Origin: Cloacibacterium caeni
Lineage (GTDB): Bacteria > Bacteroidota > Bacteroidia > Flavobacteriales > Weeksellaceae
Length of the DNA stretch: 64,000 nt
Assembly: GCF_907163105.1 (NCBI RefSeq)
Contig: NZ_OU015321.1
Coordinates: 2,061,001 to 2,125,000, forward strand
Reading direction: 5' to 3'
The notes under the pieces were generated by a model. It was not told where the DNA came from, did no database searches, and was given only the letters and a program-made list of their open reading frames with translations. The translations under genes were made by a program, and so were the position numbers. This document shows, piece by piece, positions 7,823 to 61,188 of the stretch. Numbering within the stretch: position 1 is the first letter of the stretch; each line of letters opens with the position of its first letter.

Positions 7823-8905
7823 ATGAAAAACATCATCATTACTGGAGGAGCGGGATTTATTGGTTCACACGTAGTTCGTGAATTTGTAAAAAACAATCCA
7901 GAATATAATATCATTAACCTAGATGCTTTAACGTATGCTGGGAACCTCGAGAATTTAAAGGATATAGAAAACAAACCCAATTATTTTTTTGAAAAAGCAG
8001 ATATTACAAAACCTGAAGAACTCAGAAAAGTTTTTGAAAAACATCATCCTGATGCAGTCATTCATTTGGCTGCAGAGTCTCACGTAGACAGAAGCATCAC
8101 AGACCCGAATGCATTTATCAACACCAATGCTTTTGGAACGGCAAATCTTCTGAATTTATGTAAAGAATTTTGGACGCTCAATCCAGACCATCAACATGGG
8201 AATTTCCCTGAAGGAAAAAGAGAAAACCTTTTCTACCACGTTTCCACAGACGAAGTTTACGGAGCTCTTGGCGAAACAGGATTCTTTACCGAAGAAACTT
8301 CTTATGACCCGAAATCTCCTTATTCTGCCAGCAAAGCGGCTTCTGATCATTTGGTTCGTTCTTATGGTAACACCTACGGATTGCCTTTCGTGGTTTCCAA
8401 TTGCTCTAACAATTATGGCCCGAATCATTTTCCTGAAAAACTGATTCCGCTTTGTATTCACAATATTATCAACGAAAAACCGCTACCAATTTATGGCGAT
8501 GGAAAATACACCAGAGACTGGTTATATGTGGTAGACCACGCTAAAGCTATTCACCAAATCTTCCATGAAGCAAAAACTGGAGAAACCTACAATATTGGCG
8601 GTTGGAATGAATGGCAAAATATAGATTTGATTAAAGAACTCATCAAACAAATGGATGCAAAATTAGGAAAACCAGCAGGTTATAGCGAGAAATTGATTAC
8701 ATTCGTAAAAGATAGACCTGGTCACGATAAGCGTTATGCTATTGATGCAACAAAATTGAACAAAGATTTAGGCTGGAAACCAAGTGTAACTTTCGAAGAA
8801 GGATTATCAAAAACCATTGATTGGTTCTTAGAAAACGAAGAATGGCTAAATAATGTAACTTCTGGAGATTATCAAAAATATTATGCTTCGCAATATTCTA
8901 AATAA
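7823..8905 (+). CDS. rfbB: dTDP-glucose 4,6-dehydratase
   Basis: RfbB (RmlB) converts dTDP-glucose to dTDP-4-keto-6-deoxyglucose, the second step of dTDP-deoxysugar synthesis. The 360-residue protein has the NAD motif GGAGFIG at residues 8-14, the substrate motif HVSTDEVYG and the catalytic YSASK with Tyr167 and Lys171. It is followed by rfbA after an inserted GxxExxY gene. No rfbC or rfbD is present nearby, so the product is more likely used by the WecE aminotransferase encoded at 13987-15129 than for rhamnose. Confidence 0.97.
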   Translation: MKNIIITGGAGFIGSHVVREFVKNNPEYNIINLDALTYAGNLENLKDIENKPNYFFEKADITKPEELRKVFEKHHPDAVIHLAAESHVDRSITDPNAFINTNAFGTANLLNLCKEFWTLNPDHQHGNFPEGKRENLFYHVSTDEVYGALGETGFFTEETSYDPKSPYSASKAASDHLVRSYGNTYGLPFVVSNCSNNYGPNHFPEKLIPLCIHNIINEKPLPIYGDGKYTRDWLYVVDHAKAIHQIFHEAKTGETYNIGGWNEWQNIDLIKELIKQMDAKLGKPAGYSEKLITFVKDRPGHDKRYAIDATKLNKDLGWKPSVTFEEGLSKTIDWFLENEEWLNNVTSGDYQKYYASQYSK

Positions 8906-8916
8906 CTCGAATTAAA

Positions 8917-8931
8917 ACGAATTTCTCTAAT
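8917..8931 (+). repeat. Left arm of inverted repeat around the first GxxExxY gene
   Basis: ACGAATTTCTCTAAT here is the reverse complement, with a single-base length difference, of 9335-9350. The two arms bracket the GxxExxY gene almost exactly, 2 bp before its ATG on this side. Confidence 0.75.
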
Positions 8932-8933
8932 TA

Positions 8934-9314
8934 ATGGATGAAAAAATAATTTTTAAAGAAGAAAGCTATAAAATTATTGGGATTTGCATGAACATTCATT
9001 CTACTTTAGGAAATGGATTTTTAGAAGCTGTTTATTCGGAGGTATTAGAAAAAGAATTTATTAAAAATAATATCCCTTATCAGAGAGAGGTAAAACTTGA
9101 TTTATTTTTCAATGGCGAAAAATTAGATAAAAAATATAAAGCAGATTTTATTTGTTTTGATAACATAATATTAGAAATTAAAGCAGTTTCTTTCATTCAT
9201 GAAAATTTCACAAAACAAACATTAAACTACTTAAAAGCTACAGATAAAAAATTAGGACTGCTCATCAATTTCGGTGAAAAATCCTTGAAATATAAAAGAA
9301 TAATTAATTTATAA
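8934..9314 (+). CDS. GxxExxY protein (PD-(D/E)XK nuclease-like small protein)
   Basis: The 126-residue protein carries the family signature GFLEAVY (GxxExxY) near residue 29, preceded by the typical MNIHSTLGNG. A later segment, ADFICFDNIILEIKA, has the D...ExK spacing of the PD-(D/E)XK nuclease fold to which the family has been related. No activity has been established for the family that I know of. The gene is wedged between rfbB and rfbA, which normally form one unit, and is enclosed by the inverted repeats at 8917-8931 and 9335-9350. A second family member occurs at 59225-59629, also inside repeats. This suggests a mobile or repeat-associated gene rather than a polysaccharide enzyme. Confidence 0.9.
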   Translation: MDEKIIFKEESYKIIGICMNIHSTLGNGFLEAVYSEVLEKEFIKNNIPYQREVKLDLFFNGEKLDKKYKADFICFDNIILEIKAVSFIHENFTKQTLNYLKATDKKLGLLINFGEKSLKYKRIINL

Positions 9315-9334: not shown

Positions 9335-9350
9335 ATTAGAGAAAATTCGT
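9335..9350 (+). repeat. Right arm of inverted repeat around the first GxxExxY gene
   Basis: ATTAGAGAAAATTCGT is the inverted counterpart of 8917-8931. It is followed by the partial tandem ATTCGTGCAATTCGTG (9345-9360), of a kind that looks like a dispersed intergenic repeat. Confidence 0.75.
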
Positions 9351-9368
9351 GCAATTCGTGTAAATATT

Positions 9369-58135: not shown

Positions 58136-59158
58136 ATGAATATTTCTGAAGCACAACTTTTTTTCGAAGAATTTTTAGGCGAAAAGGCAACCGCATTTTT
58201 GGCATTGCCTCAAAGTGGTTCTGCGCGAATGAATTTCATTGGAAAATCCTCGAATGAAACTTACGTGATTACTTACAACGAAAATCTTCTAGAAAACGAA
58301 GCGTTTTTCTATTTCACACAGGTTTTTTCAGATTTAAACTTGAACACGCCTCAGATTTTTAAAATCAACGAAGAAAGAAAACTTTATATTCAGGAATTTT
58401 TGGGTGAAAAAACACTTTCTGAAATCATCGCTCTAGAAGGTGAATCTGAAAGAGTAAAATCTTTGGTCAAACAAACATTAAAACATTTATTTGAACTTCA
58501 AGAAAAGACCCAAAACAAAATAGATTTTTCTAAAACTTTCGAGTACGAAAAGTATGACGAACTGCCCATTACACATGATTTGTACTACTTCAAAAATTAT
58601 TTGATAGACATTCTAGAGTTGCCTTATCATAAATCTACTTTACTGAAAGAATTCAAAAAAATTGTAGAAAAAATAGAAAATCTAGCCCCAAAATCCTTGA
58701 TGATAAGAGATTTTCAGGCAAGAAATATTTTGGTAAATGATCAAGACGAAGTTTTTTTCATAGATTATCAAGCGGCAATGAAAGGACCTGCTCTTTACGA
58801 TGTGGTTTCTTTTCTCTTCCAAGCTAAAGCCAATTTTTCTGAAAATTTCAAAAATGAAATGCTAGAATATTACTTCTCTTTTCGTCCTTCAGAAAAAAGA
58901 AATGAATTAGAAAAATCTTTGAAATATTGTAAAATGATTCGTTTTATTCAGGTTTTAGGAGCCTATGGTTTTAGAGGACTTATTCAGAGAAAACCGCATT
59001 TTATCGCAAGTTTAGAACAGGGAATTCAGAATTTAGTAGAGTTCACCAAAACGGAACCTGAGATGAATGAATATCCAGAGCTAAAAAATTTAATTCTACA
59101 ACTGAACACAGCGGAAACTAAAAATAAAATTCAAAAATTAATTCATCTTAACCATTAA
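58136..59158 (+). CDS. amgK: AmgK-like anomeric sugar kinase (aminoglycoside phosphotransferase fold)
   Basis: The 340-residue protein has the aminoglycoside-phosphotransferase fold. Catalytic motifs are MIRDFQARNILV with Asp192 and Asn197, and FIDYQAAMKGPALYDVVSFL with Asp210, close to those of AmgK, which phosphorylates MurNAc/GlcNAc at C1 in cell-wall recycling. The downstream MurU-like gene (60359-61078) supports this. The first repeat A (59148-59203) overlaps its last codons and supplies LNH-stop, so the natural C-terminus may have been trimmed or extended by the repeat. An ordinary choline/ethanolamine kinase-like enzyme is the main alternative. Confidence 0.78.
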   Translation: MNISEAQLFFEEFLGEKATAFLALPQSGSARMNFIGKSSNETYVITYNENLLENEAFFYFTQVFSDLNLNTPQIFKINEERKLYIQEFLGEKTLSEIIALEGESERVKSLVKQTLKHLFELQEKTQNKIDFSKTFEYEKYDELPITHDLYYFKNYLIDILELPYHKSTLLKEFKKIVEKIENLAPKSLMIRDFQARNILVNDQDEVFFIDYQAAMKGPALYDVVSFLFQAKANFSENFKNEMLEYYFSFRPSEKRNELEKSLKYCKMIRFIQVLGAYGFRGLIQRKPHFIASLEQGIQNLVEFTKTEPEMNEYPELKNLILQLNTAETKNKIQKLIHLNH

Positions 59159-59203
59159 GATTTTGAAATTTCAAAATTAATTAAGAAATTAAGAATATTA
59201 AGT
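59148..59203 (+). repeat. Direct repeat A, copy 1
   Basis: This 56-bp sequence (starting TTAACCATTAAGATTTTG) is identical to 59745-59800. Its ACCATTAAG end is inverted in repeat B (CTTAATGGT). It overlaps the 3' end of the AmgK-like gene. Confidence 0.92.
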
Positions 59204-59224
59204 TTAAAAACTAAAGTTTTTAAA

Positions 59225-59629
59225 ATGACAAAAAAGAAAGTAACTCAATTATCATATGAAATAATAGGACTTGCCATAAAAGTTCATAAAGAACTTGGCG
59301 CTGGTTTATTAGAAAGTATATATGAGGATTGTTTAAAATATGAGTTAGAAAAAAATGGCTATGACGTGAAACAACAGTTAACTGTTCCTATTATTTATGA
59401 TAATAAAATTATGGAAACTAAATTAGTTGTTGATTTGTTGGTAAATGACACTATTGTTGTTGAATTAAAAGCAATTGAAGAAACATTACCAATTCATGAA
59501 GCACAACTTCTAACATACATGAAAGTTCTAAAAAAACCACAAGGATTATTGATAAATTTTTTCTCCAAAAACATCACAAAATCCATGAAGCCTTTTGTTA
59601 ATGAATATTTTAACATGCTTCTAGATTGA
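59225..59629 (+). CDS. GxxExxY protein, second copy
   Basis: The 134-residue protein has the signature GLLESIY (GxxExxY) after IKVHKELGAG, and TKLVVDLLVNDTIVVELKAIEE, with the D...ExK pattern of PD-(D/E)XK nucleases. It is a divergent homologue of the protein encoded at 8934-9314. It lies between the AmgK-like and RapZ-domain genes, flanked by repeats A (59148-59203) and B (59658-59703), inside a unit that is duplicated without the gene at 59745-59908. Confidence 0.9.
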   Translation: MTKKKVTQLSYEIIGLAIKVHKELGAGLLESIYEDCLKYELEKNGYDVKQQLTVPIIYDNKIMETKLVVDLLVNDTIVVELKAIEETLPIHEAQLLTYMKVLKKPQGLLINFFSKNITKSMKPFVNEYFNMLLD

Positions 59630-59657
59630 TTTTTGATAAATCAAAAATCCTTAATTA

Positions 59658-59703
59658 TCTTAATACCTTAATAAATACTTAATGGTAAAAAATAAAAATC
59701 TTA
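59658..59703 (+). repeat. Direct repeat B, copy 1
   Basis: This 46-bp sequence (starting TCTTAATACCTTAATAAA) is identical to 59863-59908. Its CTTAATGGT is the inverse of the start of repeat A, so A and B are the ends of an imperfect palindrome. Confidence 0.92.
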
Positions 59704-59713
59704 TTTTTAAAAA

Positions 59714-59755
59714 ATGCATAAGCTTAAAATAGAAACTAAACGAATTAACCATTAA
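59714..59755 (+). pseudogene. Decayed copy of the start of the RapZ-domain gene
   Basis: After repeat B copy 1 comes ATGCATAAGCTT..., which matches the first 24 bases of the RapZ-domain gene at 59919 in 18 positions. It runs into repeat A copy 2, which gives it a stop codon after 13 codons. It is best read as a remnant of a duplication. Confidence 0.6.
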
Positions 59756-59800
59756 GATTTTGAAATTTCAAAATTAATTAAGAAATTAAGAATATTAAGT
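59745..59800 (+). repeat. Direct repeat A, copy 2
   Basis: Identical over 56 bp to 59148-59203. Confidence 0.92.
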
Positions 59801-59862
59801 AAAAATAATGGAGTTGCAATTACTTAAAAATGTTTTTTTGATTTATCAAAAAAACTTAATTT

Positions 59863-59908
59863 TCTTAATACCTTAATAAATACTTAATGGTAAAAAATAA
59901 AAATCTTA
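59863..59908 (+). repeat. Direct repeat B, copy 2
   Basis: Identical over 46 bp to 59658-59703. It ends 10 bp before the RapZ-domain start codon, so it forms the leader of that gene. Confidence 0.92.
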
Positions 59909-59918
59909 ATTTTAAAAA

Positions 59919-60329
59919 ATGAATAAACTAAACATAGACATTTACAGTTTTTCTTATAAAAAAGGCGGAATACCAGTAGACAACAGCGGAAATGGCGGCG
60001 GTTTTGTATTCGATTGTAGAGGAATTCTCAATCCGGGAAGAATAGAAGAATACAAACCTCAAACTGGTAATGACAAAGGCGTTCAAGAATTTCTAGAAAC
60101 TAAAACTGAAATGCCTCAATTTATAGACCTCATCAAAAATTTAGTAAGCATTACCATAAATGATTACATCGCTCGTGGTTTTGACCATTTGCAAATTGCT
60201 TTTGGTTGTACTGGTGGTCAACACAGAAGCGTGTATTGTGCCATTAAACTAGGCGAATTTTTGCAGGAAAAATATCCTGAATTGGTAAATGTTGCAGTAA
60301 CGCATAACGAACAGCCACAACTTAATTAA
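59919..60329 (+). CDS. Stand-alone RapZ C-terminal domain protein
   Basis: The 136-residue protein corresponds to the C-terminal half of RapZ: FVFDCRGILNPGRIEEYKPQTGNDKGVQEFLE and the conserved GCTGGQHRS at residues 96-104. The N-terminal P-loop ATPase half is missing. In E. coli the C-terminal domain of RapZ senses glucosamine-6-phosphate and binds RNA. Its position between a putative AmgK gene and a putative MurU gene suggests an amino-sugar-responsive regulator of cell-wall recycling. Confidence 0.88.
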   Translation: MNKLNIDIYSFSYKKGGIPVDNSGNGGGFVFDCRGILNPGRIEEYKPQTGNDKGVQEFLETKTEMPQFIDLIKNLVSITINDYIARGFDHLQIAFGCTGGQHRSVYCAIKLGEFLQEKYPELVNVAVTHNEQPQLN

Positions 60330-61082: not shown

Positions 61083-61188
61083 ACCATTAAGTTTTCAAAT
61101 AAATTTTGAAAATCATTAAGAAATTAAGTTCATTAAGAGGGTTTTTACTCTCAAATTAATGGTAAAATAAAACTAAATTTTAAAAAAA
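61083..61188. repeat. Third, diverged copy of the A/B palindromic repeat
   Basis: ACCATTAAG, GAAATTAAG, CATTAAG and TTAATGGTAAAATAAAA follow one another, matching the order of motifs in repeats A and B without exact identity. It fills the gap between the MurU-like and LOG genes. Confidence 0.7.

Follow-up and report, generated by a model that had tools for sequence, protein, structure and literature searches.

A GxxExxY nuclease-family gene within inverted word-repeat arms in Cloacibacterium caeni and the gene-less copies of its unit

Why do two identical pairs of repeats stand between an amgK-like sugar kinase gene and a rapZ C-terminal-domain gene in Cloacibacterium caeni, one pair enclosing a small gene and the other only a short spacer and a hairpin? 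In the window, i.e., the whole stretch of 64,000 nucleotides that was analysed, amgK is followed by unit 1 and by a copy of the start of rapZ-C; unit 2 comes next, ahead of rapZ-C and murU, and the locus closes with a third unit, again gene-less, and a gene of the LOG family. All features located below are on the forward strand. The amgK-like gene (APH family, 58136..59158) has its last codons and stop inside the left arm A of unit 1 (59148..59203, overlap AAC CAT TAA), which is made of ATTAAG words and an 18-nt inner palindrome. Arm A is followed by the gene of a GxxExxY protein of 134 aa (59225..59629), an inner hairpin (59630..59647) and the right arm B (59658..59703), which consists of CTTAAT words and is the inverse of arm A, so that every unit makes up one large palindrome. 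Exact repeats of arm A (59745..59800) and arm B (59863..59908) form unit 2, which contains no gene; between them lie a short spacer and an inner hairpin (59835..59852) whose 18 nt match those of the unit 1 hairpin perfectly in inverted orientation. The downstream gene (59919..60329) encodes a stand-alone RapZ C-terminal domain, and the third gene-less ATTAAG unit, partly deleted, lies between murU and the LOG-family gene (61083..61163). The rapZ-C start copy between units 1 and 2, recognised by sequence comparison (59714..59755), forms an open mini-ORF of 13 codons (MHKLKIETKRINH) that runs to a stop codon inside the next arm; like amgK, it terminates on the TAA of an ATTAAG arm.

An earlier note on this DNA had described two full-identity copies of both arms and a degraded copy of the rapZ-C start, and direct comparison agrees with it in every detail. 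The longest exact match is 56 nt for A (59148-59203 = 59745-59800) and 46 nt for B (59658-59703 = 59863-59908), and the remnant at 59714 is identical to the rapZ-C start at 59919 at 18/24 positions. A and B are not due to chance, because no exact repeat was longer than 16 nt when the 2001-nt region was simulated 200 times with a first-order Markov model. The gene calls of the note were also right, as shown by profile matches to TIGR04256 and PF13366 for the GxxExxY protein and to PF22740 for the RapZ-domain protein.

The comparison of the amgK/rapZ-C place in seven genomes of the genus showed two units in G000, three in G002 and five in G001, with the gene in one unit of each, while no unit was present in G005 and G006, where amgK runs into the rapZ-C start; relatives differ in unit number. 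The GxxExxY gene is absent from this place in G003 and G004. An assembly artefact is an unlikely source of the two units, since two congeneric assemblies hold three and five of them there. All units of G001 and G002 other than the last carry the rapZ start element, which is a diverged one in unit 1 of G001, and the view that the palindromic unit was duplicated along with a copy of the rapZ start is supported. Of the third unit, after murU, G002 has an intact copy and G001 a shortened one, and none is present in G005 and G006. The note had further suggested that the repeats are recent or kept alike by recombination; the latter does not hold as a general rule of concerted evolution because units differ by 0.091 on average within genomes and by 0.083 between genomes. 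In G000 itself, a local exchange, or selection acting on the arms, would still fit the exact identity.

Beyond the genus, the order amgK–GxxExxY–rapZ-C was present in 30 fetched Weeksellaceae loci, 27 of them distinct, including those of Chryseobacterium, Kaistella, Halpernia and Frigoriflavimonas. The proposal that the GxxExxY gene was gained together with the duplication therefore fails, and it is the gene-less units that are derived copies: the gene is old at this place and they came later. Among 26 further rapZ-C loci, seven had no amgK in the stretch, four had a GxxExxY match (one truncated) and 15 had no match, of which two retained solo remnants and 13 no unit. In G005 and G006, the empty junction is more probably the result of a loss than a site that was never filled. 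Empty sites were also found in G003 and G006 at a second junction, which across the congeners holds a GxxExxY unit, a remnant, other cargo or nothing; loss is likelier at the first junction. No target-site duplication was seen in the empty and filled junctions read at these two places, which differ by small changes such that an old duplication could have been lost. At a permease/ABC ATPase junction, GCAGAT-type arms surround a small membrane-protein-like ORF in G001 (L150, contig C1), and G000 has a CGCAAAG GxxExxY unit there.

Are such arms a property of this site or of the GxxExxY gene? We drew 95 GxxExxY loci from genomes of the genus and from 60 of the family, leaving out low-scoring or broken matches at the bottom of the list, and each upstream flank was compared with the reverse complement of its own downstream flank and ranked against cross pairs. 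Three loci were dropped from this flank test for ORF length (L011, L054 and L091, the first of which shows arms by eye); of the 92 remaining, 63 ranked in the top 5% of cross pairs and 30 in the top 1%, and 29 failed. The arms are repeats of a word of 6–9 nt, inverted on the opposite side of the gene. Among the 53 genes of at least 120 aa in the window, which served as a control, three passed, i.e., both GxxExxY genes and one of the 51 others. The second GxxExxY gene of the window (8934..9314), identified by profile match and flank test, has CACGAAT-type arms at 8905..8931 and 9335..9361, located by the flank test.

In a set of 80 relatives of the window protein, 71 carried at least two ATTAAG-type words on each side in inverted orientation, against a background of 2.5% per side. 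Only 16/80 passed the flank test, a low rate which is due to all of them sharing one word. Three loci of this set come from the same genomes as other loci of the analysis (L160/L104, L161/L083, L210/L107), L212 and L221 have identical proteins, and L175, L181, L200 and L225 were kept for the word count and dropped from the neighbourhood, strand, upstream-stop and one-locus-per-neighbourhood counts. Across the phylum, GxxExxY genes were matched in 122/247 genomes; 14/26 loci passed the flank test and 12/26 failed, after four of 30 (L241, L250, L251 and L253) had been dropped. Among the plasmid loci (four of eight matches), the one of Bernardetia (Bacteroidota) has arms on both sides and that of Gemmatirosa a complete palindrome downstream. 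On a plasmid of Sphingomonas parapaucimobilis (L367), fabD and fabG are separated by an inserted GxxExxY gene that has CGCGAAG words on its upstream side only, and on a plasmid of Fusobacteria bacterium ZRK30 (L368) the GxxExxY gene is flanked by direct, not inverted, repeats.

The word differs between loci and follows the protein. The words include ATTAAG, CGCAAAG, CACAGAG and CACGAAT, and on a tree of 89 proteins, with 14 word labels set by hand before the tree was built, 18 word changes were required as compared to a shuffled mean of 62.2, and none of 200 shuffles was as low. A label-free test on 3874 pairs of loci from different genomes with no shared neighbour gene gave the same picture, the arms being alike in 57.7% of the 52 pairs at 70-85% protein identity, in 16.0% of the 156 pairs at 60-70% and in 0.5-0.8% below 50%. 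When one locus per neighbourhood was taken (63 loci, six draws), arms matched in 75–87% of pairs at ≥70% identity, the high-identity pairs being mostly of the ATTAAG clade, whose scanned relatives were picked by protein and not by arms; the proportion was 36-52% at 60-70% and ≤3.5% below 60%, and the Mantel r was 0.59-0.64 against a permuted maximum of 0.17. At one junction, CACGAAT arms occur with a CACGAAT-clade protein in G000, G005 and G004 (L018, L037 and L042), and CACAGAT arms with a CACAGAT-clade protein in G002 (L045). Word and protein clade thus differ together between congeners at a single junction, which argues that the arms go with the protein and not with the site. The notion of the earlier note that the repeats are the leader of rapZ was not sustained, the arms belonging with the GxxExxY clade and recurring with it at other sites. 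Sequence comparison shows each clade to have its own arm word, and gene and arms form one unit that has long been inherited at one place and is present together at many unrelated places.

The protein encoded within the arms is a confident family member, with 138.5 bits against TIGR04256 (cut-off 35) and 132 against PF13366 (cut-off 22). The residues E30, D70, E80, K82, Q94 and Y98 are invariant in an alignment of 22 relatives, and the acidic and ExK active-site residues of the PD-(D/E)XK nuclease family are present. Matches to Cas4 profiles were weak: PADLOC Cas4b matched L010 at E 5.8e-5 and Cas4 matched the window protein at 7.6e-4, and L017 gave no match. The best match in a sequence search of solved structures was PDB chain 4ic1_A, a Cas4, at E 0.037; this was rejected as proof of kinship because of that value and because most other matches were S100 proteins. 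The genome of the window encodes ten GxxExxY genes, each with its own repeat words nearby.

Arms without a gene occur both alone and in tandem arrays. With a CGCAAAG unit as the query, arm-only matches turned up in each of the seven congeners, even in G006, whose genome lacks a GxxExxY gene. The median count of CGCAAAGN{1,2}CGCAA was 12.5 in the 12 genomes with a fetched CGCAAAG-clade gene and 1 in the other 48 (p 1.7e-4, kinship ignored), with high counts lacking the cognate gene in G014 (36) and G002 (21) and further exceptions in G060 (14) and G006 (8). For ATTAAG abundance and gene presence, p was 0.0014 (kinship ignored and the copies of one genome belonging to a MITE of insertion-sequence type), and solo ATTAAG units were few in most genomes. 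Tandem arrays are present in G025 and G002. Those of G025 (L330 and L331) consist of units of about 215 nt in which CGCAAAG words are combined with an CCCGCGGATTTCACGGATGACGCAGAT arm. Halpernia humi (G041; L270-L286) gave 20 ATTAAG matches; where the match was long enough for its left end to be read, in 16 of 16 cases, it is part of a repeat bounded by AGAGCCTGTTTAAA. A MITE of insertion-sequence type has captured an ATTAAG unit there and spread. These 20 copies were rejected as proof of unit movement because they sit inside that MITE.

Similar arms were also found around genes of another family. TIGR02436 (S23, four-helix bundle) genes occur in 51/60 genomes, and 38/63 of their loci in the same taxonomic family (L122-L145 and L290-L329, with L308 dropped from 64) passed the flank test; their arms are inverted arrays of words of about 8 nt, such as TTAGAAGT, GGTTGTC, AAAGAATA and CAAGAATC. 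To our knowledge, TIGR02436 proteins are not known as nucleases. More than anything else, these arms hint at an architecture that extends beyond one enzyme; they also count against a purely nuclease-based cause, i.e., the nuclease may not be what makes the arms.

The closest known arrangement is that of REP sequences and RAYT genes (REPINs, TIRtrons). In two reports (PMC2817692, PMC3733652), RAYT genes are described as having two flanking inverted repeats, co-evolution of gene and repeat, gene-less copies and arrays elsewhere in the genome, and more copies where the cognate gene is present; the GxxExxY loci share the flanking inverted repeats, the co-evolution and the gene-less copies and arrays. 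However, GxxExxY is of the PD-(D/E)XK type and RAYT is a HUH/Y1 transposase; no HUH/Y1 domain was found, the only Pfam and NCBIfam matches of the window gene being PF13366 and TIGR04256. The GTAG or related tetranucleotide head of REPs is absent from the window units, which start at TTAACCATTAAG, and the GxxExxY arms consist of an arrayed word of 6-9 nt, which is AT-rich here, and enclose genes that are embedded in operons on the same strand. With an unrelated enzyme and no REP head, the GxxExxY units resemble the REP/RAYT system without being members of it.

Other likenesses are more distant. The intervening sequence of 23S rRNA has a terminal inverted repeat with a small S23 (TIGR02436) ORF in its loop and is described, in PMC4990558, as a selfish element; yet its four-helix protein is unrelated, and it lies in rRNA and is removed by RNase III, whereas GxxExxY loci lie at junctions of protein genes. 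MITEs are also short gene-less inverted-repeat units, but the GxxExxY units have no insertion-sequence relative, no target-site duplication was identified for them and words are repeated within their arms. Cas4 nucleases share the weak profile match over the active site, whereas GxxExxY proteins are of about 130 aa and have their own arms, and no CRISPR locus was seen in the loci examined. No account of GxxExxY arms was found in the portions of the literature returned by searches on GxxExxY, TIGR04256 or PF13366, on word arms and on Bacteroidetes and Chryseobacterium repeats; a full-text search gave the GxxExxY name in only two papers, neither of which, as listed, deals with them.

These results suggest, from sequence comparison, a gene-plus-repeat unit of a previously undescribed kind, inherited and moving together. 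The explanation that we favour, with moderate confidence, is that the predicted nuclease recognises its own word and drives the copying of the unit, the solo units being its satellites. Unit 1 is a PD-(D/E)XK gene in the loop of an ATTAAG-word palindrome, and its protein would cut DNA at the arms and so drive the copying or exchange of units; by analogy, the solo units would stand to the nuclease as REPs stand to RAYTs. The parent unit of the window is old and vertically kept between amgK and rapZ-C; on this reading, the solo units arose beside it by a tandem duplication that took with it some 30 nt from the start of rapZ, after which the unit number came to vary between species. The GxxExxY genes may depend on read-through transcription of host operons. 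In its favour are the flank test, the agreement of word and protein clade, the varying content of the second junction, the higher CGCAAAG counts with a cognate gene, the invariant nuclease residues, the low dN/dS and the same-strand bias given below. Several findings count against this explanation: the loci are long-lived, 29/92 failed the flank test, solo ATTAAG units are few, CGCAAAG matches occur without the cognate gene, and the Fusobacteria locus has direct repeats. No movement of units was observed in the congener and family loci compared. A broader reading, held only tentatively, is that GxxExxY proteins are small Cas4-like nucleases which form, with cognate word-array palindromes, a widespread nuclease/satellite-repeat system, the word being a specificity code diversified by clade, and that TIGR02436 (S23) genes make up a second system, parallel to it, in which the architecture is shared and the words differ.

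The most serious alternative, which we regard as unlikely though well short of negligible, is that the cassette is kept by the host: the arms would serve, as an operator or as an RNA structure, to regulate or protect the transcript of a nuclease gene embedded in an operon, gene and arms would be transferred as one DNA piece, and the protein would not copy the arms. The median dN/dS of the GxxExxY gene was 0.054 over 57 pairs at the amgK/rapZ-C place, which means strong purifying selection, and the 27 distinct loci at this one operon junction fit a kept cassette, as does the distribution of 168 long-lived loci over 51-66 neighbourhoods. GxxExxY genes are also biased to the strand of their neighbours, being co-oriented in 176/182 adjacent pairs compared with 70/84 other pairs, and in 135/152 compared with 186/251 in the set of relatives of the window protein; the stop codon of the upstream gene is often inside the arm itself. 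RNA folding relative to shuffles gave a z of -5.9 for the whole of unit 2 and -3.7 for the third, solo unit. However, the CGCAAAG solo unit L335 of another genome folded no better than shuffles (z -0.95), the stretch ending there before the arm end, and a host-kept cassette leaves unexplained the gene-less units between unrelated genes, the tandem arrays and the higher word counts in genomes with the cognate gene.

It is improbable that the arms are a mutational by-product, with word arrays and their inverse arising from slippage and template switching in AT-rich DNA and the GxxExxY adjacency from break repair or hitch-hiking. The words are indeed short and tandem, the arms within one locus often resemble each other more closely than they do those of different loci, and the comparable arms of TIGR02436 genes are made of many different words. 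But word and protein clade agree across unrelated neighbourhoods, other genes of the window lack such arms, and the GC-rich hosts Gemmatirosa and Sphingomonas show GC-rich versions of the same word type. The origin proposed in the earlier note, a local duplication of the rapZ leader coupled to the gain of GxxExxY, is very unlikely: the duplication with the rapZ start copy is real, but the many GxxExxY loci at this junction in several genera needed no duplication, and congeners have three and five units. The reading as an insertion-sequence MITE in which ATTAAG repeats are present by chance, as the AGAGCCTGTTTAAA-ended repeat of Halpernia humi might suggest, has almost nothing to recommend it here, because the window units and other loci were seen without such ends and the Halpernia repeat captured an ATTAAG unit.

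If the arms and the nuclease are not partners, the link between word and protein clade would still need another explanation. If they are partners, as the favoured reading of nuclease-driven unit copying holds, they would offer a cause for a large, so far unexplained share of the intergenic repeats of Bacteroidota, and about ten word/protein pairs may serve for testing how a small nuclease reads DNA.
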